10,731 nucleotides of DNA from Tannerellaceae bacterium (GTDB lineage: Bacteria; Bacteroidota; Bacteroidia; Bacteroidales; Tannerellaceae). The stretch lies in NCBI GenBank assembly GCA_031279915.1, contig JAITHO010000126.1, forward strand, positions 1-10,731, written 5' to 3'. Shown one piece after another: positions 1-10,731 of the stretch. Every line of letters starts with the position of its first letter. Positions within the stretch are counted from its first letter, which is position 1. A program made the position numbers and the translations under genes. The notes below the pieces were generated by a model, which saw only the letters and a program-made list of their open reading frames with translations, searched no databases and had not been told where the DNA came from.

Positions 1-860
1 ACGGCGAGCAGTATATCCATATATATACGCATGCAGACGGAGGGATTTCGAAAAGACTTCCGCTCATGAATATCCGGCAAAGCGTGCTTAGCAGCGTAAT
101 CAACATAGAGCTTCCTCAAATCTTTGCAGTCCGTGAAGAAATGCGCGCATGGAAGTTCCTCCAATTTAATCCGGAAGACCTGCGCGAACCTACTCGGCAA
201 GGCTCAGGCGACGTCATATCTCGGACAGGAAAGAACCTGGCTGCCGCATTGTTCATCCTAAAGCATGAGGATCCGTATAACCTTGTCGCAATATCCAGAA
301 AGATCAACGAGTTTCTTCCGGAATTTATAGACATCGACGTGATTGACGACAGAGCCAACCGACAGTTCATCATCACGCTCAAGAATGCCGACGGCACAAT
401 CTTTACCTCCAGGCTGCTCTCCGAGGGAACTTTGCGGATTGTCGCTCTCGCCACTCTGCTGTGCGACGACAGGCATAAGAGCCTCCTCTGCATGGAGGAG
501 CCTGAGAACGGCCTGAGTCCGCAGCGCATTACATCTATGGTTGGATTGCTGAAAGAGCTTAGCATCGACTTCAGTTCGGATTCGCCCGCCACCAGGCAAG
601 TGATAATCAACACTCATTCGCCATGGCTGATTACTGAATGTTGGAAACTCGGCGATCCCGACACAAGCATCTGGTTGACTAAAATGATAACCTGGTTTTG
701 CGAAGTCGACGGGCATCGTTATAGCTTTCCTATCTCCAAAGCCATACCCGGATGTATGAACAAAGAATCGAAATCCGGCGATGCCTTCTCGGAGAGGGAC
801 AGAAAGCTGGGGCTATATGAAATCAATAAGTACCTGAGCGAACAAAGACAAGATAAATGA
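1..860 (+). CDS. AAA/SMC-type ATPase, C-terminal part (5' end outside window)
   Basis: The frame is open from the first complete codon (base 3) with no stop, and the residues before the first in-window ATG (base 66) read like the middle of an ATPase domain, so the true start and the Walker A motif lie to the left of the window. Counting from the ATG at 66, an ABC-type signature LSEGT lies at residues 118-122, a Walker B with catalytic glutamate (CMEEPENGL) at 142-150, and the switch histidine in INTHSPWL at 181-188. The block AWKFLQFNPEDLREP (28-42) followed by GKNLAAALF is typical of RecF/OLD-like AAA_21 ATPases found with effector genes. No TOPRIM or nuclease domain follows in this chain; the TGA stop overlaps the next start (ATGA at 857-860), so the next gene is probably its translationally coupled partner. 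Family assignment is solid. A role as sensor or motor of an anti-phage system is inference from the arrangement. Confidence 0.85.
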   Translation, partial: GEQYIHIYTHADGGISKRLPLMNIRQSVLSSVINIELPQIFAVREEMRAWKFLQFNPEDLREPTRQGSGDVISRTGKNLAAALFILKHEDPYNLVAISRKINEFLPEFIDIDVIDDRANRQFIITLKNADGTIFTSRLLSEGTLRIVALATLLCDDRHKSLLCMEEPENGLSPQRITSMVGLLKELSIDFSSDSPATRQVIINTHSPWLITECWKLGDPDTSIWLTKMITWFCEVDGHRYSFPISKAIPGCMNKESKSGDAFSERDRKLGLYEINKYLSEQRQDK

Positions 861-1513
861 CACGAGAATTACGCATAGGCCTCTTTGCCGAAGGAACGAC
901 CGACGAACGCTTCCTGCCAAGCATCATTAAGCGAACTATTGAACGCCTCAGCAAGAATAGTCCGGTTCATATAGATGCGTGCGATATCATTATTATCCGC
1001 TCCGACGCCGATAAATTCACGCAGAAAGCCGTGGAAGCCGCACGTAAGGGCTTTAAGGATTATAACATCGACATCCTTTGCCTGCACGCTGACGCCGATG
1101 ATAAGAACGACAGCAATACCTATAAAACCCGAATCGATCCTGCTCTTGCAGCTATCCAGAAAGCAGGGGAGGATGTTTGCCAAGTGATTGTTCCGCTTGT
1201 TCCTGTTTGGATGACCGAGGCTTGGATGCTTGCCGATAAGGAATGCTTCAAACGGGAGATAGGAACAAGCAAAAGCTACAGCGAACTTGGGCTCAACAAA
1301 AAGCCAGAAAAAGAAGGCAAGCCTAAAGAGGCTATCCGGGAAGCTATCCGTAAAGCTTATGCAGGCAAACCCAAAAAGCGCAGAAAGGAATTGGACATAA
1401 CGGATCTCTACCAAATTATAGGGCAATCGACTTCGCTTTCCGAGCTCGACAAGCTTTCGTCATACAGTACATTTCGCAAGCTCCTTGCAAGCAAGCTTCA
1501 ATTTCTCAACTAA
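857..1513 (+). CDS. DUF4276-like protein with TOPRIM-type acidic motifs, partner of upstream ATPase
   Basis: A 218-residue soluble protein with no signal peptide or membrane segment. It opens with strand-motif FAEGTTDERFL (residues 10-20), giving Glu12-Gly13 and Asp16, followed by a second acidic motif HADADD at 77-82 (Asp79, Asp81, Asp82). This EG-then-DxD pattern is the metal-site layout of TOPRIM folds. The later EAWMLAD (121-127) and PExxxKPK (150-157) blocks match what I know of the DUF4276 family, which is often encoded beside AAA ATPases. A very basic stretch (KPKKRRK, about 161-167) could touch nucleic acid. The start at 857 overlaps the preceding stop by 4 bp (ATGA). By analogy to OLD/Gabija systems, where ATPase and TOPRIM nuclease are one chain, this may be a nuclease effector supplied as a separate subunit. 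No activity can be proven from the sequence; DUF4276 has no function I can state firmly. Confidence 0.72.
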   Translation: MTRELRIGLFAEGTTDERFLPSIIKRTIERLSKNSPVHIDACDIIIIRSDADKFTQKAVEAARKGFKDYNIDILCLHADADDKNDSNTYKTRIDPALAAIQKAGEDVCQVIVPLVPVWMTEAWMLADKECFKREIGTSKSYSELGLNKKPEKEGKPKEAIREAIRKAYAGKPKKRRKELDITDLYQIIGQSTSLSELDKLSSYSTFRKLLASKLQFLN

Positions 1514-1526
1514 CAACACAACCAAA

Positions 1527-2336
1527 ATGAACACCATCAACAGCATCTCCCTCTCCGGACTCTTCGGCAAGTATAGCCTGCACTGGAACCTGCATCCTGA
1601 TGTGAACATTCTCGTGGGAGTCAATGGCTCGGGGAAGACTACTATCTTGCGATGCCTCGATGCATTGCTGTCGGGAAACTTCAGCCTCTTAAAGCAGCGG
1701 AGCATTGAGATCGCTATCACTCTGGCCGACGGACTGACGATCGCCTACAAGGGCAAAGCTATACCCATACCCAACATCAAGCATGAGTACATCACTACCT
1801 TCGACGTTCCGCTCAGAAAAACGCCTAACCGCGACGAAACCCCGCTCGACAAGGAGTTACAGCGAACGCTCTACGCCCTGGGGAGCAACCAGAAATCCTT
1901 CTCCGGATACAGGCTCAAGGCTACCAACTCGCCCGAAGAGGCACAGACTGTCAATCGACGCATACAGAAGCTCTTCGCACTGATCAACGAGCTATGCGCC
2001 GAAACCGACAAAACCATCGAAATCAATCGAGAAAACAACAGCATCGTATTCAGGCATGCCGACGAAATCATCCCGCTGGGGAGATTATCCTCCGGCGAAA
2101 AGCAATTGCTGGTCATACTCTTCACCGTCTTCCTCATGGAAGAAGAACCCTGCCTGTTGCTGACCGACGAGCCCGAAATATCACTACACATAGGATGGCA
2201 GCAGCGCTTCATCGACGTACTCTACGAAGTCAACCCAAGCCTGCAACTCCTCATAGCTACCCATTCGCCATCAATATTCGGAGAAGGATGGGGAGATAAA
2301 ATCTTTTTCACCGAAGACCTTATCAACCCTTTATAA
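1527..2336 (+). CDS. Small ABC/SMC-like AAA ATPase, candidate partner of the DUF4435 protein
   Basis: A complete 269-residue ATPase. Walker A is GVNGSGKTT (residues 31-39), the ABC signature LSSGEKQ is at 187-193, Walker B with catalytic Glu is LLTDEPEISLH (211-221), and the switch His is in ATHSPSI (234-240). The region between Walker A and the signature is only about 150 residues, so there is no long SMC coiled coil. I chose ATG 1527 over the upstream in-frame ATG at 1485 because the latter lies inside the preceding gene and adds residues that match no domain; from 1527 the chain begins directly with the usual first strands (SISLSGLFGKYSLHW). The gap to the preceding gene is 13 bp and to the following gene 2 bp, so it is very likely co-transcribed with both. 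An ATPase next to a DUF4435 gene is the arrangement of PARIS AriA/AriB, but this one is short for AriA. It is a different ATPase subfamily from the gene at 1-860, not a recent duplicate. Confidence 0.85.
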   Translation: MNTINSISLSGLFGKYSLHWNLHPDVNILVGVNGSGKTTILRCLDALLSGNFSLLKQRSIEIAITLADGLTIAYKGKAIPIPNIKHEYITTFDVPLRKTPNRDETPLDKELQRTLYALGSNQKSFSGYRLKATNSPEEAQTVNRRIQKLFALINELCAETDKTIEINRENNSIVFRHADEIIPLGRLSSGEKQLLVILFTVFLMEEEPCLLLTDEPEISLHIGWQQRFIDVLYEVNPSLQLLIATHSPSIFGEGWGDKIFFTEDLINPL

Positions 2337-2338
2337 CA

Positions 2339-3301
2339 ATGATAACAACCGACAAAAGAACATATTTCAGCCGCTTAGCCTTATACTACAAGAACAGGGC
2401 AAGGCTCAAAGGATGCACCGCCGCAGTACATCTGGAGGCAGCCTTTGACCAAGTGTTCTGGGACAAAGTATTCAGGCAAACAGCTCCACATTGTCGGTTT
2501 GACTACGTCACATACAGCCGCAATCCCTTAGGGCAAAAAGCAACCGGATGCTCCGTATGCCTCCAGTACCTCAACTACGGATGCCTCTCCGACCGCTTCT
2601 TTGTATGCATCGACAGCGATTACAGGCGCCTCATGCGAGAAGCTCGAATCAACATTGGACATTATGTATTCCAAACCTATACCTACTCGCTCGAGAATCA
2701 TTTTTGCCATCCGACGAACATAGTAGGCGCATTCCAGCAGCTTGGCCTTGGCATACCGCCTTTCGATTTCGACGCCTTCCTCAAAGATTATTCGCAAACG
2801 CTTTATCCTCTGTTCCTCTACCATCTTATGTCGGTAGAAGCCGACGACGATGTTTTCCCAATGAGCGACTTTGGCCAATATATGAACATCGACGTCGCGC
2901 CGCCCGAGCATCCCGCCATTATCCGCTCCTTGCGTCAGCGCGTTAGGCGCAAAGAACTCGCGCTCCAGAGTATTTATCGTCGCGTAAATCCCGAAACCCT
3001 CGAAAAACGATTCGGATATGCCGGACTGACGCCTGAAAACGCCTGGATGTACTTTAGGGGCCATAACCTACTCGACCAAGTGATAATGAAGCTGATTAAG
3101 GCTATACGCAGCAAGATGGAAGCCCGCGCAACCCAAACTTACGACAACAGTCGCAAGCGGATTTTTTACGACGAACGACAGAACATCAAGCAGCATCTCA
3201 CGGATACGCTCGCTTTCGGACAATATCCCGAAATCATCTGGCTCGAACAAGATGCCAAACAGTTTTGCAAACGATATGATAATGAGAAACGACGGTCATA
3301 A
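2339..3301 (+). CDS. DUF4435 protein (TOPRIM-like, AriB-type), candidate effector
   Basis: A 320-residue soluble protein recognisable as DUF4435. The N-terminal motif HLEAAFDQVFW (31-41) supplies Glu33, Asp37 and the characteristic Phe-Trp; FFVCIDSDY (87-95) supplies the second acidic pair Asp92/Asp94; YSLEN (116-120) is another family hallmark, and FRGHNLLDQ (239-247) matches the conserved GH/GK-D/N-L block in the C-terminal half. In PARIS anti-phage systems the DUF4435 subunit AriB is a TOPRIM-type nuclease released from the ATPase AriA when a phage trigger is sensed. Here the Gly that usually follows the first catalytic Glu is Ala34, which is worth noting since the acidic residues themselves are kept. 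It starts 2 bp after the upstream ATPase stop. The C-terminal tail is strongly basic (KRYDNEKRRS). DUF4435 assignment is good; the PARIS-like role is inference from family and neighbour. Confidence 0.8.
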   Translation: MITTDKRTYFSRLALYYKNRARLKGCTAAVHLEAAFDQVFWDKVFRQTAPHCRFDYVTYSRNPLGQKATGCSVCLQYLNYGCLSDRFFVCIDSDYRRLMREARINIGHYVFQTYTYSLENHFCHPTNIVGAFQQLGLGIPPFDFDAFLKDYSQTLYPLFLYHLMSVEADDDVFPMSDFGQYMNIDVAPPEHPAIIRSLRQRVRRKELALQSIYRRVNPETLEKRFGYAGLTPENAWMYFRGHNLLDQVIMKLIKAIRSKMEARATQTYDNSRKRIFYDERQNIKQHLTDTLAFGQYPEIIWLEQDAKQFCKRYDNEKRRS

Positions 3302-3331
3302 TATCACAGCCCCCTTCCGCCCCCCGCAAAG

Positions 3332-3351
3332 CCAATGTAACGTTACATTGG
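3332..3351. other. 20-bp perfect palindrome at left edge of the array
   Basis: At the first unit the palindrome extends to CCAATGTAACGTTACATTGG, a perfect 20-bp inverted repeat with no loop. The inner 12 bp are the array consensus. It is the most extended of the 14 copies and marks the left array boundary, just after a C-rich stretch containing CCCGCAAAGCC. A dimeric DNA-binding protein site is a reasonable reading, but nothing in the window identifies the protein. Confidence 0.8.
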
Positions 3352-3859
3352 GCTCGTTTTCGGAAATCAAGGAAAATGTAACGTTACATTTGGCTCGTTT
3401 TCGGAAATCGAGGGAAATGCAACGTTACACTGGGCTCGTTTTCGAAAATCGAAGCAAATGTAACGTTACAAAAAGCTCGTTTTTCGACGATCGAAGCAAA
3501 TGTAACCTTACAAAAGGCTCGTTTTTTTGCGATCGAAGCAAATGTAGTGTTACAAGAGGCTCGTTTTTCGGATTTGAAGTAAATGTAATGTTACAAGAGG
3601 CTCGTTTTTCGGCGATCGAGGCAAATGTAACGTTACAAAATGCCCGTTTTCCGAAAATTGAGGCAATTGTAACGTTAAAAAAGGCCCGTTTTCCGAAAAT
3701 TGAGGCATTTGTAACGTTGAAAAAGGCCCGTTTTCCGAAAATTGAGGCATTTGTAACGTTACAAAAGGCCCGTTTTCCAAAAATTGAGGCATTTGTAACG
3801 TTACATTTGGATCGTTTTCGAAAATTGAGGCAAATGCAACGTTACATCGGCTTCAAATA

Positions 3860-4042: not shown

Positions 4043-5305
4043 ATGCTATACGACTTGTTTCATTGGTTACAGCAGCTAGACTTTCCGGGAGCCGGCTTGT
4101 TTAAGTACGTTTCGTTCCGATCCGGAATGGCGTTAATCCTTTCCTTGTTTATCTCTACAGCCATAGGGCACCGGCTTATCGACACTTTGCGTAAGATGCA
4201 GATAGGCGAAACGGTGCGCAACCTTGGCCTGGAGGGGCAAGAGAGCAAGAAGAATACGCCCACGATGGGAGGAATCATCATCATCATAGCCATCTTGGCG
4301 CCCACCCTTCTCTTCGCACGGCTGAACAACGTTTATACGCAGCTCATGCTTGTCACCACCATCTGGCTGGGCGCAATAGGGTTTATCGACGATTATATCA
4401 AGGTGGTTAAAAAGAACAAAAAGGGGTTGCACGGGCGTTACAAAATCATAGGGCAGATAAGCCTGGGATTTATCGTCGCATTCGCTCTATACTTCAGTCC
4501 CGATGTGGTGATCCGCGAGAACCGCGAAACGCTTAACCGCAACCAAACGGTGCAGAGCGTCAACATCCATCCCGAGGAAACGAAATCAACGAAAACCACC
4601 ATCCCCTTCATGAAGAACAACAACTGGGACTATCGCAACCTGGTTCGCTGGGCCGGGCCGATGGAGGATGCTCTGACCTGCATTGTCTTTATCATCGCTG
4701 CCGCCTTCATCATAACGGCAGTGTCTAACGGAGCCAATCTAACCGACGGATTAGACGGGCTTGCCGCAGGGAGTTCAGCAATCATAGGAATAGCATTGGG
4801 GATACTCGGCTATATGTCGTCGCATGCCCAGTTTGCCGAGTTCCTGAATATCATGTTTATCCCCGGCGCCGAGGAGTTAGTGGTGTTTGCCGCCGCGTTC
4901 TTCGGCGCCACCATGGGATTTCTGTGGTATAATGCCAATCCGGCCCAGGTGTTCATGGGCGATACGGGTAGCCTTACGCTTGGAGGGATAATCGCAGTGT
5001 TCGCTATTCTTATCCGTAAAGAGCTTCTGCTGCCTATACTTTGCGGGATATTCTTGGCGGAGATAGTGTCGGTCATGATTCAGCAGGGATACTTTAAGCT
5101 AACCAAAAGGATGTACGGCGAGGGAAGGCGGATATTCAAGATGACCCCATTGCATCATCACTTCCAAGTGAAAGGAAACAGTGGTGTCAATGCATGGATT
5201 CAGCGGCCGATGAACATAGTTCCCGAATCAAAGCTCGTGGTTCGCTTCCTGCTGGTAGGGGTCATTCTGGCCGTCATAACCATAGTAACGCTAAAGATGA
5301 GATGA
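4043..5305 (+). CDS. mraY: Phospho-N-acetylmuramoyl-pentapeptide transferase (MraY)
   Basis: MraY is the integral membrane enzyme that transfers phospho-MurNAc-pentapeptide from UDP to undecaprenyl phosphate, making lipid I on the inner face of the membrane. The 420 residues carry the family motifs in order: NTPTMGG (71-77), the Mg-binding DDYIK (116-120), NLTDGLDGLAAG (232-243), WYNANPAQVFMGDTGS (295-310, with Asp307), and MTPLHHHF (367-374). Several hydrophobic segments fit the usual ten-helix topology. It is about 60 residues longer than the E. coli enzyme because of a hydrophilic insertion around 152-205, typical of Bacteroidota MraY. The start at 4043 gives the normal family N-terminus (MLYDLFHWL). 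murD follows after 7 bp. The gene upstream in related clusters is usually murE; here it is replaced by the repeat array and an accessory operon. Confidence 0.97.
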   Translation: MLYDLFHWLQQLDFPGAGLFKYVSFRSGMALILSLFISTAIGHRLIDTLRKMQIGETVRNLGLEGQESKKNTPTMGGIIIIIAILAPTLLFARLNNVYTQLMLVTTIWLGAIGFIDDYIKVVKKNKKGLHGRYKIIGQISLGFIVAFALYFSPDVVIRENRETLNRNQTVQSVNIHPEETKSTKTTIPFMKNNNWDYRNLVRWAGPMEDALTCIVFIIAAAFIITAVSNGANLTDGLDGLAAGSSAIIGIALGILGYMSSHAQFAEFLNIMFIPGAEELVVFAAAFFGATMGFLWYNANPAQVFMGDTGSLTLGGIIAVFAILIRKELLLPILCGIFLAEIVSVMIQQGYFKLTKRMYGEGRRIFKMTPLHHHFQVKGNSGVNAWIQRPMNIVPESKLVVRFLLVGVILAVITIVTLKMR

Positions 5306-5312
5306 AAAGCTT

Positions 5313-6650
5313 ATGAGAAAAAGGATGGTTATTCTTGGAGCCGGCGAGAGCGGTACCGGAGCAGCCGTACTGGCTCGGCAAAAGGACTACGATGTGTTCG
5401 TATCCGACGCCGGCCCCATACAAAGCCGCTTCAAGGAAGCGCTTGATTCGCGTGGGATAAGCTGGGAGGAGAACGGTCATACAGAGGCTTCGATTCTTTC
5501 GGCCGATGAGATAATCAAGAGCCCCGGCATCCCCAACAGCGCTCCTATCATGCAAAAGGCGATAGCGAAAGGCCTTCCGATCCTCTCAGAGATCGAATTG
5601 GCAGGCCGCTATACCTCATCCTTCATGATATGCATAACGGGTAGCAACGGCAAAACAACCACAACCATGCTCACCCATCATATACTGAAAAGCGCCGGGC
5701 TCGACGTAGGCCTGGCCGGCAACGTTGGTCACAGCCTGGCAATGCAAGTGGCCGAAGATCCTCACGAGTATTACGTCGTTGAGCTCAGCAGCTTTCAGCT
5801 CGACAATATGTATAGCTTCAGGGCTAATATAGCCGTACTGCTTAATATTACTCCCGACCATCTGGATCGTTACGATTACCAGATGCAGAAGTATGTCGAC
5901 TCCAAGTTCCGAATCCTAAGGAATCAGACCTCCGCCGACGCCTTCATCTATTGGGCCGACGATCCGATCATAGCCCGTGAAGCGCATCGCAGAAATATAC
6001 CCTCCAGCCAGTATCCGTTCGCCATAAAGAAACGCGAAGGCCTGAAGGGCTACGTAGATAATAACCGTATAACAATAGAAACAATCAATGAAAATCTAAG
6101 TATGAACCGTGAATCGCTATCTCTAAAAGGAGAACACAATCTTTATAACTCATTAGCAGCCGGCATAGCTGCTAAGGTCATATACATCAAAAAGGAGATC
6201 ATCCGTAATGCGCTAAGCGATTTTACGGGCGTGCCGCATCGCATGGAGTATGTAGCTCGCGTTCGCGGCGTGGATTACGTTAACGACTCTAAGGCCACTA
6301 ACGTCAACTCCTGCTGGTATGCTCTCAAAACCGTTTGCAGCCGGATTGTTCTCATCATGGGAGGCACTGACAAGGGCAACGATTATTCTGAGATAGAAGC
6401 TCTCGTGCGCGAGAAAGTCCATGCTCTGATCTTCCTCGGAGCCGACAACAGCGCGCTTCACCGCTTCTTCGACGGCAAGGTCGATCGCATAGCCGACGCT
6501 CATTCGATGAACGAAGCCGTGCAGGCAGCCTATCGCCTGGCCGAGAAAGGCCAAACCGTGTTGCTATCGCCATGCTGCGCCAGCTTCGACTTGTTTAAGA
6601 ACTACGAAGACAGGGGTAACCAATTCAAGTCATGCGTTCTCAACCTGTAA
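5313..6650 (+). CDS. murD: UDP-N-acetylmuramoylalanine--D-glutamate ligase (MurD)
   Basis: Cytoplasmic ATP-dependent ligase adding D-glutamate to UDP-MurNAc-L-Ala. The 445 residues show the three Mur ligase domains: an N-terminal Rossmann-like UDP-binding domain beginning MVILGAGESGTG (5-16), a central ATPase domain with P-loop ITGSNGKTTTT (108-118), ELSSFQL (157-163) and NITPDHLDRY (178-187), and a C-terminal domain with NDSKATN (324-330) after HNLYN (275-279), ending in the conserved SPCCASFDLFKNYEDRG block. Length is normal for MurD. It lies 7 bp after mraY, and its 3' end overlaps the ftsW start by 19 bp, which points to one transcript and coupled translation. No unusual residue changes in the visible motifs. 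Confidence 0.97.
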   Translation: MRKRMVILGAGESGTGAAVLARQKDYDVFVSDAGPIQSRFKEALDSRGISWEENGHTEASILSADEIIKSPGIPNSAPIMQKAIAKGLPILSEIELAGRYTSSFMICITGSNGKTTTTMLTHHILKSAGLDVGLAGNVGHSLAMQVAEDPHEYYVVELSSFQLDNMYSFRANIAVLLNITPDHLDRYDYQMQKYVDSKFRILRNQTSADAFIYWADDPIIAREAHRRNIPSSQYPFAIKKREGLKGYVDNNRITIETINENLSMNRESLSLKGEHNLYNSLAAGIAAKVIYIKKEIIRNALSDFTGVPHRMEYVARVRGVDYVNDSKATNVNSCWYALKTVCSRIVLIMGGTDKGNDYSEIEALVREKVHALIFLGADNSALHRFFDGKVDRIADAHSMNEAVQAAYRLAEKGQTVLLSPCCASFDLFKNYEDRGNQFKSCVLNL

Positions 6651-7882
6651 GCGAAGAGAAGGGGAAAAGTTTCAAGTCGATGCTTTTGAGCGGCGACAGG
6701 GTTATATGGATAATCTTCCTGCTAATGTGCCTTGTGTCGTTCGTTGAAGTATTCAGCGCGAGTACATCTTTGGCGCATAAGGATGGCAACTATTGGTCGC
6801 CCATTATCCGTCATGGCCAGATGCTAATAGGCGGTATCTTCATAGCGAAGGTGATGCAATACCTGCCCTTCCGAGTGTTTACGATTGGCAACTGGCTGCA
6901 TTTGCTGTCCATCGTCCTGCTCATTCTGACGCTCTTCATCGGCAAAGAGATCAACGACTCCAAGCGCTGGCTGGCGCTGTTTGGATTGCAGTTCCAGCCA
7001 TCGGAAGTGGCCAAGCTCACGACTGTGATCTTCATTGCCTATTGCCTGAGCGTTCGGCGTCAGTATACGGAGGCGCGTATGTTCAGGTACATTCTGATAG
7101 GAACATTCACGGTGGCGGGACTGATAGTTACCGAGAATGTTTCGACGGCGGCTTATGTGATTATCTTCAGCTACGTGCTGATGTTCATCGGAGGAATATC
7201 CGCCAAGCGAATGATTTCGCTTACCCTTGTGATAGCCTTTTGCGGAGCATTGTTTGCCGGATCGCTATTCACAATGAAAGACGAGTGGATAGCCAAGTAT
7301 AACTTCCTCCAGAAATCGAAGAACAGGATACTGGAATTTTCCAAGCCCTCGGCGGCTCTCAATCCTGAGACCTACGTCATCACCGACTATAACCGGCAGG
7401 AAACCTACTCGAAGATCGCCATAGCTAACGGCAGCAGCGGTATGTTTCCGGGAATGGGCCAGCAGCGCAGCACTCTTCCGCTGGCCTACGCTGATTACAT
7501 TTACGCGATTATCATCGAGGAGCTGAGCGTGGCGGGCGGAATAATCATCATGATCCTGTACATCGTCCTGCTCTTTAGAGTGGGACGCATCGCGCAGAAG
7601 TGCGACAAGCTATTCCCAAAGTATCTCGTCATGGGATGCGGACTGATGATAGGCATGCAGGCCTTTATGAACATGGCCAGCGTTGTTGGGCTCTTTCCTG
7701 TTATGGGACAGCCATTGCCTCTCATCAGCCACGGAGGAACGAGCACTATCATCACCTGCACTTATTTCGGCATCATCCTCAGCGTAAGCCACACTATCAA
7801 TAAAGAAGATGAGAAAGTAGACGAAGAGGAGGAGGATGATCTCCCCTCGCCATCAAATCAAGAACAAACCAATGAAACCTGA
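6632..7882 (+). CDS. ftsW: Septal peptidoglycan glycosyltransferase FtsW (SEDS family)
   Basis: FtsW polymerises lipid II into glycan strands at the division site together with the transpeptidase FtsI. The 416-residue protein is strongly hydrophobic with about ten membrane segments from residue 24 to 390. Family marks are KRWLALFGLQFQPSEVAKL (111-129), TENVSTA (167-173), the large periplasmic loop ending in LPLAYADYIYAIIIEEL (282-298), where Asp288 corresponds to the catalytic Asp of SEDS polymerases, and GQPLPLISHGGTS (359-371). The cytoplasmic tail (391-416) is very acidic (KEDEKVDEEEEDD), then rich in Ser, Pro and Gln. The ATG at 6632 overlaps murD by 19 bp; ATG 6680 (residue 17) is an alternative start that would still keep all membrane segments. 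The 3' end overlaps murG by 11 bp. Confidence 0.96.
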   Translation: MRSQPVSEEKGKSFKSMLLSGDRVIWIIFLLMCLVSFVEVFSASTSLAHKDGNYWSPIIRHGQMLIGGIFIAKVMQYLPFRVFTIGNWLHLLSIVLLILTLFIGKEINDSKRWLALFGLQFQPSEVAKLTTVIFIAYCLSVRRQYTEARMFRYILIGTFTVAGLIVTENVSTAAYVIIFSYVLMFIGGISAKRMISLTLVIAFCGALFAGSLFTMKDEWIAKYNFLQKSKNRILEFSKPSAALNPETYVITDYNRQETYSKIAIANGSSGMFPGMGQQRSTLPLAYADYIYAIIIEELSVAGGIIIMILYIVLLFRVGRIAQKCDKLFPKYLVMGCGLMIGMQAFMNMASVVGLFPVMGQPLPLISHGGTSTIITCTYFGIILSVSHTINKEDEKVDEEEEDDLPSPSNQEQTNET

Positions 7883-10337
7883 AAGAATTATTATCAGCGG
7901 AGGCGGCACGGGCGGGCATATCTTCCCAGCCCTATCTATTGCTAACGCCTTCCGCGAGCGATTCCCCGAGATTGAGATACTCTTTGTTGGGGCCGACAAT
8001 CGCATGGAGATGGAACGCATACCGGCGGCAGGCTATCCAATCAAAGGCCTCCCCATTATGGGCTTTGACCGACGAAGGCCGTGGCGCAACTTTAAGGTTA
8101 TAGCCAGGCTTGTGAGGAGCTTACGGATGGCCCGCAGGATATTGGGCGAATTTAAGCCCGACTTCGTTGTGGGAGTCGGAGGCTATGCCAGCGGTCCGCT
8201 CTTATGGGCAGCCTCAGCTTTGAAGATCCCTGTCTTCATACAAGAACAGAACTCGTATGCCGGCATAACGAACAAGCTCTTGGGGAAGAAGGCCGCGGGC
8301 ATCTTCGTTTCTTATGAAGGCATGGAGAAGTTCTTCCCCTCCGGAAAGATCATCCTTGCCGGCAATCCTGTACGCAAAGACTTGGAGGCGGCAGCCGGAA
8401 AGCGCTCCGAGGCTTGCGCCTTTTTCGGCCTATCGCCTGATCGGACAACGTTGCTAGCCGTTGGCGGCAGCCTTGGAGCAAGTACAATCAACAGGAGTAT
8501 CGGCGCCGGACTAGAATATCTTCGGAAGGCCGACATTCAGCTGATATGGCAAACCGGTCGCAATTATATAGACGAAGCTCGGAGGATAGTCGAGCAGCAG
8601 GGCGCAAGTTCCTACGTTTGGGTATCTGATTTCATAAGCAGGATGGACTACGCATATACAGCCGCCAGCTTAGTGATCTCCCGCGCAGGAGCCGGAACCA
8701 TTTCCGAACTCTGCTTGCTGGGCAAACCGGCCATACTTATTCCGTCGCCAAACGTGGCTGAGGATCATCAAACCAAGAACGCTATGGCCCTCGTTGTCCG
8801 AGGGGCCGCCATATTCATTGCCGACAAAGAGGCCGAGCATCTCCTTATTCCCATGGCAATCACTCAGACCAAGGATGCCGCATCGCTGGCTAAGCTCGGC
8901 CAAAAGATAAGAGCCATGGCTCGACCTCGCAGCGACCGGCTTATCGTTGAATCTATATTGACAATGCTGGGAGAAGCCTTCTATTTCGTTGGAGCCGGAG
9001 GAATAGGAATGAGCGCTATCCTGCGATACTATCTTTCGAAAGGAAAAGCCGTGGGAGGATACGACAAAACTCCGTCGAGCCTCACCGAGCAGCTGATCGG
9101 CGAAGGAGCCCTTATCCACTACGACGACAACGCCAATCTCATTCCCGAAGCCTTCAGATCGCCGCAAACAACCACCGTGATATATACCCCTGCCGTTCCC
9201 GATTCGCATGGCGAGCTGAATTGGTTTCGCAGCCGCAACTTCACTATCATGAAGCGAAGCGAAGCGCTTGGAGCAATAACGCGAGCCTCGCGGGCGCTTT
9301 GTGTGGCTGGAACCCATGGCAAAACAACTACGTCGTCGATGATTGCTCACTTGCTGAAGCAATCTCCTGTTGACTGCAGCGCCTTTCTGGGAGGCATCCT
9401 CAAGAACTACGGAACGAACCTGCTATTGTCCGACAAAAGCGATCTGACGGTGGTGGAAGCCGACGAGTACGATCGCTCCTTCCTGCATCTCCAGCCCTGG
9501 ATGGCCATCATCACATCAGCCGACCCCGATCATCTCGACATCTACGGAACGCCGGAAGCCTATCGCCAAGCCTTCGAACAGTTCACCTCCCTCATCCGTC
9601 CCGGCGGCTGCCTCATAATGAAGCAGGGCGTCGACATCTCGCCACGGCTCCAGGATGACGTTCGGCTATATACCTATTCAATAGGTGAGGAAAGCGATTT
9701 TGGGGCGGATAATATCCGTGTCGGAGGCGGCGAGATCATCTTCGACGCCATCCTGCCCGACGACGGTCGCATCAGCGATATCCATCTTGGAGTACCCGTG
9801 CGGATAAACATCGAGAACGCCATTGCAGCCATAGCCGTGGCACGACTGAATGGAGCAGGCGACGAAGATATACGGCAAGCTATGGCGAGCTTCAGAGGCT
9901 CCGAACGCCGGTTCGACTTCCATATCAAGCGCGATGATTTGGTTCTCATCGACGACTATGCCCATCATCCGGCCGAATTGCAGGCAAGCATAAGCTCCGT
10001 GCGCGAGCTCTATGCCGGAAGGAAAATCACCGGCATTTTTCAGCCCCACCTCTATTCTCGCACCCGCGACTTCGCCGACGACTTTGCCGCCGCCCTCTCC
10101 CTCCTCGACGAGCTGATCCTCCTCGACATCTATCCCGCCCGCGAAGAGCCCATTCCAGGCGTAAGCTCCCTGATAATATTCGATAAGGTAGCCATCCCGA
10201 ATAAGGTTCTCTGCACAAAAGAACAATTGCTCAAAGAGATGGCCGACCGAACCAACGACATCGTCATAATGCTTGGAGCCGGAGATATCGACCGGCTTGT
10301 AGAACCCCTAAAGCATCTATTATTAAATGGGAAATAA
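7872..10337 (+). CDS. murG-murC: Fused MurG-MurC: lipid II-forming GlcNAc transferase joined to UDP-MurNAc--L-alanine ligase
   Basis: One uninterrupted frame of 821 codons encodes two normally separate enzymes. Residues 1-364 are a full MurG (adds GlcNAc to lipid I at the inner membrane face): GGGTGGHIFPA (10-20), VGVGGYASGP (100-109), GGSLGAS (198-204), and RAGAGTISEL with Glu279 (271-280), followed by AEDHQTKNA (296-304). Residues 365-821 are a full MurC (first amino acid ligase, UDP-MurNAc + L-Ala): GAGGIGMSA (374-382), P-loop AGTHGKTTT (479-487), ADEYDRSF (530-537), SADPDHLDIYG (549-559), GSERRFD (676-682), DDYAHHPAE (694-702), and IFQPHLYSRTRDF (722-734). Both halves have near-normal lengths and all visible key residues. 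The junction ILTM-LGEAFYFVGAGG has no linker: the terminal MurG helix runs straight into the first MurC strand. ATG 7872 is preferred to the in-frame ATG at 7836, which is buried in ftsW; it overlaps the ftsW stop (ATGAAACCTGA). ATG 8964 (residue 365) could additionally start a free MurC. Confidence 0.93.
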   Translation: MKPERIIISGGGTGGHIFPALSIANAFRERFPEIEILFVGADNRMEMERIPAAGYPIKGLPIMGFDRRRPWRNFKVIARLVRSLRMARRILGEFKPDFVVGVGGYASGPLLWAASALKIPVFIQEQNSYAGITNKLLGKKAAGIFVSYEGMEKFFPSGKIILAGNPVRKDLEAAAGKRSEACAFFGLSPDRTTLLAVGGSLGASTINRSIGAGLEYLRKADIQLIWQTGRNYIDEARRIVEQQGASSYVWVSDFISRMDYAYTAASLVISRAGAGTISELCLLGKPAILIPSPNVAEDHQTKNAMALVVRGAAIFIADKEAEHLLIPMAITQTKDAASLAKLGQKIRAMARPRSDRLIVESILTMLGEAFYFVGAGGIGMSAILRYYLSKGKAVGGYDKTPSSLTEQLIGEGALIHYDDNANLIPEAFRSPQTTTVIYTPAVPDSHGELNWFRSRNFTIMKRSEALGAITRASRALCVAGTHGKTTTSSMIAHLLKQSPVDCSAFLGGILKNYGTNLLLSDKSDLTVVEADEYDRSFLHLQPWMAIITSADPDHLDIYGTPEAYRQAFEQFTSLIRPGGCLIMKQGVDISPRLQDDVRLYTYSIGEESDFGADNIRVGGGEIIFDAILPDDGRISDIHLGVPVRINIENAIAAIAVARLNGAGDEDIRQAMASFRGSERRFDFHIKRDDLVLIDDYAHHPAELQASISSVRELYAGRKITGIFQPHLYSRTRDFADDFAAALSLLDELILLDIYPAREEPIPGVSSLIIFDKVAIPNKVLCTKEQLLKEMADRTNDIVIMLGAGDIDRLVEPLKHLLLNGK

Positions 10338-10343
10338 AACAAA

Positions 10344-10731
10344 CCTTGACCAGAGAAACAGAAGCTTCCCGCAACCGATCAACAGATGTAGTTGGGCCGA
10401 ACTTTTTTCCCGCAAGCCAATCACATCTGTATTTTTAGCCAGGAAATTTCCCGCAAGCCAATCACATCTGTATTTTTGGCCAGGAAATTTCCCGCAAGCC
10501 AATCAGAAAAAAATTTTTCGTCCGGAAATTTTCCGCAAAGAAATTACAAATGGTTTTTTCGTCCGGAAATTTTCCGCAAGGAAATAACAAATGGTTTTTT
10601 CGTCCGGAAATATTCCGCAAGGAAATTACATCTGTTGTTTTGGCCAGGAAATTTTCCGGAAGGAAATTACAAATGGTTTTTTCGTCCGGAAATTTTCCGG
10701 AAGGAAATTACATCTGTTGTTTTGGCCAGGA
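10344..10731 (+). repeat. 41-bp tandem array following murC, runs past right edge
   Basis: The anchor CGCAAG, or its variants CGCAAC, CGCAAA and CGGAAG, begins at 10370, 10411, 10452, 10493, 10534, 10575, 10616, 10657 and 10698: nine copies at exactly 41 bp. Each unit carries a short inverted repeat of the form CCGGAAATTTTCCGG (7-bp arms around one base), exact in units near 10650-10700 and as GGAAATTTCC in earlier ones. The linker exists in two types that are interspersed: ACATCTGT..TTTTGGCCAGG and ACAAATGGTTTTTTCGTCCGG. The first two units are degenerate. The array starts within about 10 bp of the murC stop. Open frames across it (for example on the + strand to 10587) are repeat translations, not genes. 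No ftsQ, terminator or other gene is visible before the window ends. Confidence 0.93.

Follow-up and report, generated by a model that had tools for sequence, protein, structure and literature searches.

The stretch of DNA analysed here (hereafter, the window) comprises 10,731 nucleotides of contig JAITHO010000126.1 from a Tannerellaceae bacterium, and carries murG and murC as a single open frame within a dcw cluster ordered mraY-murD-ftsW-murG::murC (Table 1). The frame is stop-free over positions 7836-10337 of the forward strand and reads as 833 residues from 7836; the ATG at 7872, which agrees with the starts of relatives, gives the 821-residue chain, and the murG start thereby overlaps the ftsW-like gene by 11 bases. 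Past the fusion, the window holds a repeat array and then the contig ends; a search of the literature on repeat arrays in this group returned nothing relevant. In two relatives, namely G015 and G011, ftsQ-like and ftsA-like frames (judged by eye) come after the fusion.

Table 1. Features of the window, with positions counted from its first letter.
Feature	Coordinates	Strand	Evidence or remark
mraY	4043..5305	+	TIGR00445, 296 bits (cut-off 192.05)
murD	5313..6650	+	TIGR01087, 396 bits (cut-off 211.95)
ftsW-like gene	6632..7882	+	best NCBIfam match ftsW, 217 bits, below cut-off of 337.5
MurG-MurC single frame	7872..10337	+	821 residues; stop at 10335-10337
MurG half, GT28 glycosyltransferase	7872..8957	+	residues 1 to about 362
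MurG N-terminal glycine loop GGGTGGH	7899..7919	+	residues 10-16
Joint	8931..8978	+	last MurG helix 354-366, first MurC strand from 369, linker-free
In-frame ATG, Met365	8964..8966	+	possible separate MurC start in principle
MurC half, UDP-MurNAc:L-Ala ligase	8976..10334	+	TIGR01082, PF01225/PF08245/PF02875, 1p31
MurC loop GTHGKTTT	9309..9332	+	residues 480-487; conserved in alignment

The MurG half scores 284.4 bits against the NCBIfam equivalog TIGR01133 (curated cut-off 250.25), with the profile covering residues 14-373 of the 833-residue reading (about 2-361 from 7872); it contains the GT28 N- and C-terminal domains (Pfam PF03033 and PF04101) and matches the folds of P. aeruginosa MurG (3s2u, TMt 0.90) and E. 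coli MurG (1f0k, TMt 0.78), to both of which its glycine loop, invariant in our 17-row alignment, can be aligned. The MurC half scores 362.2 bits against the equivalog TIGR01082 (curated cut-off 335.1), with the profile covering residues 382-824 of the same reading (about 370-812 from 7872); it contains the three Mur ligase domains and matches the fold of H. influenzae MurC (1p31, TMt 0.90), while its GTHGKTTT loop, which we take to be the MurC ATP loop, aligns to solved MurC chains. Among the best 50 chains of the fold search, MurC chains lead, MurG chains appear from rank 23, and none spans both halves. Two other Mur fusions were rejected as identities of the frame, namely MurC-Ddl (NF011171; 208.7 bits vs a cut-off of 1015) and MurE-MurF (NF008896; 48 bits vs a cut-off of 1023). 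Both in the window's genome, a draft of 229 contigs that is only about 61% complete, and in three other fused genomes of its genus, the fused frame is the sole match to murG (E <= 0.001) as well as to murC (E <= 1e-60). Comparison with G015, whose protein is 79% identical to that of the window, indicates purifying constraint on both halves (uncorrected pS/pN of 0.61/0.16 for MurG and 0.53/0.11 for MurC). The preliminary description had read one 821-residue MurG-MurC chain without a stop, and this reading holds, with the frame open and both halves above their curated cut-offs.

In an AlphaFold2 model of the chain (mean pLDDT 88.6), the helix at residues 354-366 runs almost directly into the strand at residues 369-373, in agreement with the earlier claim that the halves have no linker; the relative placement of the MurG and MurC halves in this model is not confident (pTM 0.60). 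Relatives with separate genes carry a leader of 8-10 residues (e.g., MDINNIKAV) ahead of the first MurC strand, and in the window this leader is gone, its place being held by the last helix of MurG. The earlier statement that MurC begins at its normal first strand is thus correct for the strand, but not for the leader that precedes it in separate relatives. The joint is of equal length and indel-free in G015, where its 15 codons give an uncorrected pS/pN of 0.57/0.28, and it is also as long as the window's in P0003-P0006, which lie on other contigs. Comparison with these close relatives, which keep the same joint, shows that murG and murC, neighboring genes read in one direction, became a single gene through the loss of a short stretch containing the stop of murG and the leader of MurC.

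The distribution of the murG-murC fusion is patchy. An unbroken frame is present in 4 of the 18 genomes of the window's genus, in 9 of the 110 readable genomes of the family (the other 101 having separate genes), and, by best matches only, in 6 of the 393 genomes searched across the order, 11 of which had no match at the cut-off of that search; a phylum search, in which 10 of 395 genomes cleared a more stringent cut-off of 1e-170, returned a single fusion, which is the window's own. Weaker, very divergent fusions would escape both the order and the phylum searches. Confinement to the window's genus is ruled out by the fusions in the wider family and order. Direct reading of 80 contig matches, which are among the matches listed and no census, found three fused frames, one of them (L192) cut by the contig end. 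The search for proteins of MurG-MurC length that had been proposed at the outset also found the pairing elsewhere: 112 of the 120 matches listed (of 710) contain the full set of five Pfam domains of MurG and MurC. Where listed fused chains have a functional name in the source, the MurC half alone is named (e.g., P0003), and others are called hypothetical or are nameless; annotators should therefore be aware that such chains get named by their MurC half only.

In a further 49 of the 393 order genomes, the match continues through both genes in a single frame interrupted by only one to three stops, and fusion is therefore mechanically easy; the 14 of these that were read directly have a murG stop followed by murC in the same frame. 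Since the open-frame lengths of the order search include read-through, only rows without an internal stop were counted as fused. One candidate, G472, with a 933-residue listed open frame matching MurC, was rejected because direct reading resolved it into two frames, of 372 and 460.

Mapping of the trait on a tree, as the preliminary description had suggested, required at least seven changes between the fused and separate states in a 127-row FastTree tree, of which several long branches are flagged and 20 rows come from outside the family (5 fused, and 15 with both genes in one frame, including G472, initially chosen because its listed frame was long), these having been chosen for their state and not as a random sample. 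Three changes are needed within the family, and a single origin of all fusions was rejected on these trees, which exclude the partial or duplicate sequences G086b, G080, G005, and G115. A constraint uniting the five tight fusions of g1 and g4 was only marginally rejected (AU p = 0.042), and g1 alone as one clade was rejected (p = 0.009); g1 and g4 together already form one side of a branch, with a support of only 11. By rpoB, G003 and G015 fall inside g1, and G000 and G020 have no rpoB match. Because long branches are involved, we are unsure whether the tight fusion of G011 is separate in origin from that of the window. Judged from these sequence comparisons, fusions appear to have arisen repeatedly among the relatives, either tight or with a linker, suggesting that such a joint forms readily and is well tolerated.

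Most probably, the frame encodes a true bifunctional enzyme of Bacteroidales, with MurG and MurC in one chain, whose halves work as they do when alone. As the stand-alone enzymes would, (i) the MurG half would transfer GlcNAc onto lipid I, and (ii) the MurC half would ligate L-Ala to UDP-MurNAc; the joint would make the two activities equimolar and place MurC wherever MurG sits. Substrate is not expected to pass directly from one half to the other, because MurD, MurE, MurF, and MraY catalyse intervening steps. A further proposal is that the joint was selected as a scaffold, with MurC tethered to membrane-associated MurG so that the entry ligase is anchored to a Mur complex, and we regard it as possible but doubtful. 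It draws on the recurrent fusion of one pair when neighboring pairs of the family's cluster are not seen fused: of the 113 genomes that have a murD match, none joins murD to mraY or ftsW; of 108 genomes, none joins murC to the next gene; and the family's murG rows include no ftsW-murG frame. Pure drift is not obviously a source of this restriction to the murG-murC boundary; gene overlap and membrane topology could be other reasons why the neighboring boundaries are unfused. In the same direction, MurG oligomers of B. pertussis, which bind MurE-MurF, have been put forward as a scaffold (PMC6420597). However, the MurG and MurC steps are not consecutive, most relatives in the family are unfused, the one-frame arrangement makes fusion mechanically easy, and the model gives the halves no confident relative placement; moreover, fusions that the trees set apart have linkers of anything from zero to about 60 residues, and no fixed geometry is therefore kept.

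It is rather improbable that the locus yields two products, with MurC made also or only from an internal start, or with the chain cleaved at the joint. Met365 of the window sits six residues ahead of the YFVGAGG motif, an ATG lies within 20 codons of the first MurC strand in 8 of 14 fused loci, and P0116 retains an apparent old MurC start (MDVENINSVYF). Against this, the equivalent of Met365 is absent from the nearest relative, G015, which has neither ATG nor TTG in the 20 codons and a single GTG, inside the MurG helix; none of the codons ATG, GTG, and TTG occurs there in 4 of the 14 loci (G003, G020, G097, and G172); and in 92 of the 110 fusions listed, the first-strand motif of MurC has no Met within 20 residues, although protein sequences cannot reveal GTG or TTG starts. 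The independent MurC start is therefore mostly gone, with one retained in the window, whereas 115 of 116 loci with separate genes have a Met in this interval, because a separate MurC must start somewhere.

An assembly or sequencing artefact is very unlikely, even in so fragmentary a draft and with separate murG and murC in 14 of the 18 genus genomes, because the joint recurs at equal length in G015 and P0003-P0006, and because mere loss of a stop would have kept the MurC leader, which is gone. A missed indel in MurG is likewise unlikely, since a by-eye reading of frame +1 through the joint yields an end that does not resemble that of the MurG family. The earlier judgment that this is no frameshift is borne out by a fusion common to relatives and by two complete halves under purifying constraint. 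Separate genes in close relatives, which the same description had counted against the fusion, do occur in those 14 genomes, but they do not refute it because other relatives share it.

The MurG-MurC pairing is already in print, and the probable single-chain enzyme of the window is a further case of an uncharacterised kind. A genome survey (Laddomada et al. 2016, PMC4929429, text and Fig. 3 legend) reports a murG/murC fusion in the actinomycete 'C. gilvus' and remarks that its partners catalyse non-sequential reactions. As described there, murG and then murC form one open frame in the dcw cluster, which is also what the window has, but C. gilvus belongs to a different phylum and its fusion, as presented there, is a survey observation only. 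MurG-MurC fusions are mentioned again in PMC6420597. The MurE-MurF of Bordetella pertussis, for which expression as one bifunctional protein is demonstrated according to the same paper, also combines two cytoplasmic Mur enzymes per chain, although they are different enzymes with consecutive reactions. The MurB/C fusion of Verrucomicrobium spinosum, which rescues E. coli mutants of murB and of murC and has been retained across lineages (PMC4803751), likewise contains MurC, but with MurB as its partner and with MurC N-terminal rather than C-terminal as in the window. MurC-Ddl (PMC6420597; NF011171) resembles the window in joining MurC to an enzyme that acts at a non-adjacent step, and differs in that the partner is Ddl. 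Beyond these mentions, the open-access literature, among the matches listed, contains no study of a Bacteroidota MurG-MurC fusion and no biochemical characterisation of any MurG-MurC fusion.

We advance only tentatively, as an unlikely idea, that the murG-murC boundary in Bacteroidales may be a site of repeated, convergent fusion where anchoring of the entry ligase at the membrane-bound lipid II step is favored by selection. If this were true, the many separate tight and linker-bearing fusions would be natural experiments favoring an assembly of Mur enzymes around MurG. Fused proteins set apart by the trees, tight or loose, and their close unfused relatives would provide ready pairs for asking whether tethering of MurC to MurG alters flux, localisation, or sensitivity to Mur inhibitors.

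Judging by their codes, Tannerellaceae bacterium isolates of the window's genus presumably come from termite or cockroach guts, and the window's genome is a draft (229 contigs, 60.75% complete). The reading of its murG::murC frame as an artefact is nonetheless judged very unlikely, since the unbroken frame recurs in the genus, in the family, and among the listed proteins. Our family search covered 123 genomes, of which 110 had both murG and murC readable on one stretch; the 13 left out comprised three without murC on the stretch, eight without a murG match, and two with only a piece. Nine of the 110 were fused: 4/18 in the window's genus (G000, G003, G011, and G015), 1/1 and 4/33 in genera g4 and g15, 0/36 in g12, and 0/22 in nine other genera. 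The remaining 14 genus genomes have separate genes, one of them (G005) being judged from a contig-end piece. The preliminary description's view that this does not look like a frameshift artefact is therefore supported. It had also proposed searching for fusion-length proteins, and a length-gated search, which kept out normal-size single MurGs and scored the 7998 candidates sharing most words, returned 710 matches. All five MurG and MurC domains were present in 112 of the best 120 of these 710, the other eight being two apparent cut-off fusions, one FtsW-MurG protein, and five with MurG domains alone.

The fused frame closes the window's gene order, mraY-murD-ftsW-murG::murC, in which the end of ftsW overlaps the start of murG by 11 bases and the ftsW-like gene scores under its own NCBIfam cut-off. 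The first (MurG) half scored 284.4 bits (curated NCBIfam cut-off, 250.25) and the second (MurC) half 362.2 bits (cut-off, 335.1); both carry full Pfam domain sets, which bears out the earlier claim of a complete MurG and a complete MurC on one 821-residue chain. Foldseek matched the halves to solved MurG (3s2u) and MurC (1p31), each with a TMt of 0.90. In relatives with separate genes, MurG ends in a closing helix of type RIVDEIVKIIEK followed by a stop, and a MurC leader (such as MDINNIKAV) precedes the first strand, YFVGAGGIGMS. The window's joint reads IVESILTMLGEAFYFVGAGG, with the murG stop, the spacer, and the MurC leader all lost, and is of equal length in five close proteins (P0001, the window's own, and P0003-P0006, of which P0003 is the nearest fused protein). 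An AlphaFold2 model (mean pLDDT 88.6), computed from a 17-row alignment with rows chosen by us from 120 listed proteins, placed a helix at 354-366 and a strand at 369-373 with two residues between; with a pTM of 0.60, it does not place the two halves confidently relative to each other.

The window's protein is 79% identical to that of its nearest fused relative, G015. Uncorrected differences per site in MurG, joint, and MurC were 0.61, 0.57, and 0.53 (synonymous) and 0.16, 0.28, and 0.11 (nonsynonymous), respectively. In this coding comparison, both halves are under purifying constraint, and the joint is looser in sequence than the halves, yet contains no indel or stop.

In an order sample, 6/393 genomes from 5/120 families were fused, the five besides the window's being confirmed by direct reading; 11 genomes of the sample gave nothing that reached the cut-off used. 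A further 49 order genomes gave one match across both genes in the same frame with 1-3 internal stops, the match falling slightly short of full length in two; in 14 of these, read directly, murG closes with a stop and murC continues in the same frame. Among 395 genomes sampled from the phylum, the sole stop-free match over both genes at a strict cut-off was the window's own, and 3 of the 80 named loci listed in a further scan were fused. Mapping the trait on a tree, as also proposed earlier, gave at least seven changes between fused and separate over 127 rows. The family tree gave three changes, with the fused genomes in two groups (G000, G015, G003, and G020; G104, G110, G088, and G097) plus G011, for which a separate origin is only marginally supported by the tree comparison (AU p = 0.042). 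By rpoB, G003 and G015 fall within the window's genus. These fused lineages are longer-branched than their genus-mates in the rpoB as well as the MurG/MurC trees, hinting at faster overall evolution.

No MurD frame exceeded 715 residues in the 113 family genomes with a match, and therefore none of these MurD frames is fused to MraY or FtsW. Likewise, no MurC frame ran into the next gene in 108/108 ending within the stretch (two more run off its end), and no long murG frames were found in the family besides the nine fused to MurC. Because these other tested boundaries yielded no fusion, murG-murC is, within the family's genomes, the boundary that fuses, a comparison uncorrected for overlaps, frames, and membrane topology elsewhere. 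Outside the family, P0069 (760 aa) carries FtsW and MurG domains on one chain, another fusion in the dcw cluster; PMC4929429 also gives an FtsW-MurG fusion in K. flavida.

Linkers are borne by the fused group of G104, G110, G088, and G097. In G088, the linker is made up of 7-codon (21-base) repeats that are stop-free in frame, which suggests that a spacer array became a linker by read-through. Arrays also lie on either side of the window's cluster, and these and the other examples tabulated are located at gene boundaries. Across the family, 30/37 arrays around this cluster have a unit close to 21 bases or to one of its multiples (20-22, 40-42, 63, 82-84); counting arrays regardless of unit, 28/110 loci have one or more, but the loci are of unequal length and groups are thus not fairly comparable. 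The unit, near two DNA helical turns and often a multiple of three, may be of importance. In G011, MurD may have a repeat-encoded N-terminal extension. Upstream of the window's cluster, two AAA-ATPase frames resemble defence-type ATPases, with weak MAD3 and PtuA matches far under cut-offs; one is followed by a DUF4276 protein and the other by a DUF4435 protein.

Features of the window and of example family loci
Feature	Location	Strand	Remarks
AAA-ATPase frames	window 3-3301		two frames
Tandem array	window 3334-3846		42-base unit; within 262-codon frame closing just before mraY
murG::murC open frame	window 7872-10337	+	821 codons + stop
In-frame ATG ahead of MurC first strand	window 8964-8966	+	DNA reading
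Tandem array	window 10406-10731		41-base unit; after murC, up to contig end
Arrays	L054 2474-2810 and 9357-9993
Array	L053 1663-2271
murD frame	L053 (G011) 1595-3619		674 residues, first ~230 mostly array-encoded
Array	L047 2423-2588
Array	L085 3240-3433

A separate MurC product from an internal start is an unlikely alternative, although in the window one could begin at the in-frame ATG. At the DNA level, 8 of 14 fused loci, the window's among them, have an ATG in the stretch before the MurC first strand and 6 have none; of these 6, G003, G020, G097, and G172 have neither ATG, GTG, nor TTG there. Several lineages therefore seem to make MurC only as part of the fusion. No Met lies within 20 residues before the first-strand motif in 92/110 fusion-length proteins (those with the motif among the 120 listed, nearest to the window, of 710); one is present in 115/116 separate loci, as expected, given that MurC must start there.

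The fusion belongs to a known kind, since MurG-MurC fusions are mentioned in two papers: a C. gilvus murG/murC, called actinomycete in a figure legend (PMC4929429) and of the same kind as the window's, and a further mention stating that an obvious catalytic gain is lacking (PMC6420597). The recurrent distribution goes beyond those mentions, and the literature searches listed neither a characterization of any MurG-MurC fusion nor an account of such fusions in Bacteroidales. Substrate hand-over between the halves is unsupported, because MurD, MurE, MurF, and MraY act between MurC and MurG in the pathway as outlined in PMC4803751 and PMC6420597. A selected scaffold is a possible explanation. At the level of sequence, our comparisons establish that one frame encodes two complete enzymes, both under constraint, that the separating signals have been lost, and that the fusion recurs. 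Each half is predicted to work as a stand-alone enzyme, and the fusion would produce MurG and MurC in equal number and locate MurC wherever MurG sits.
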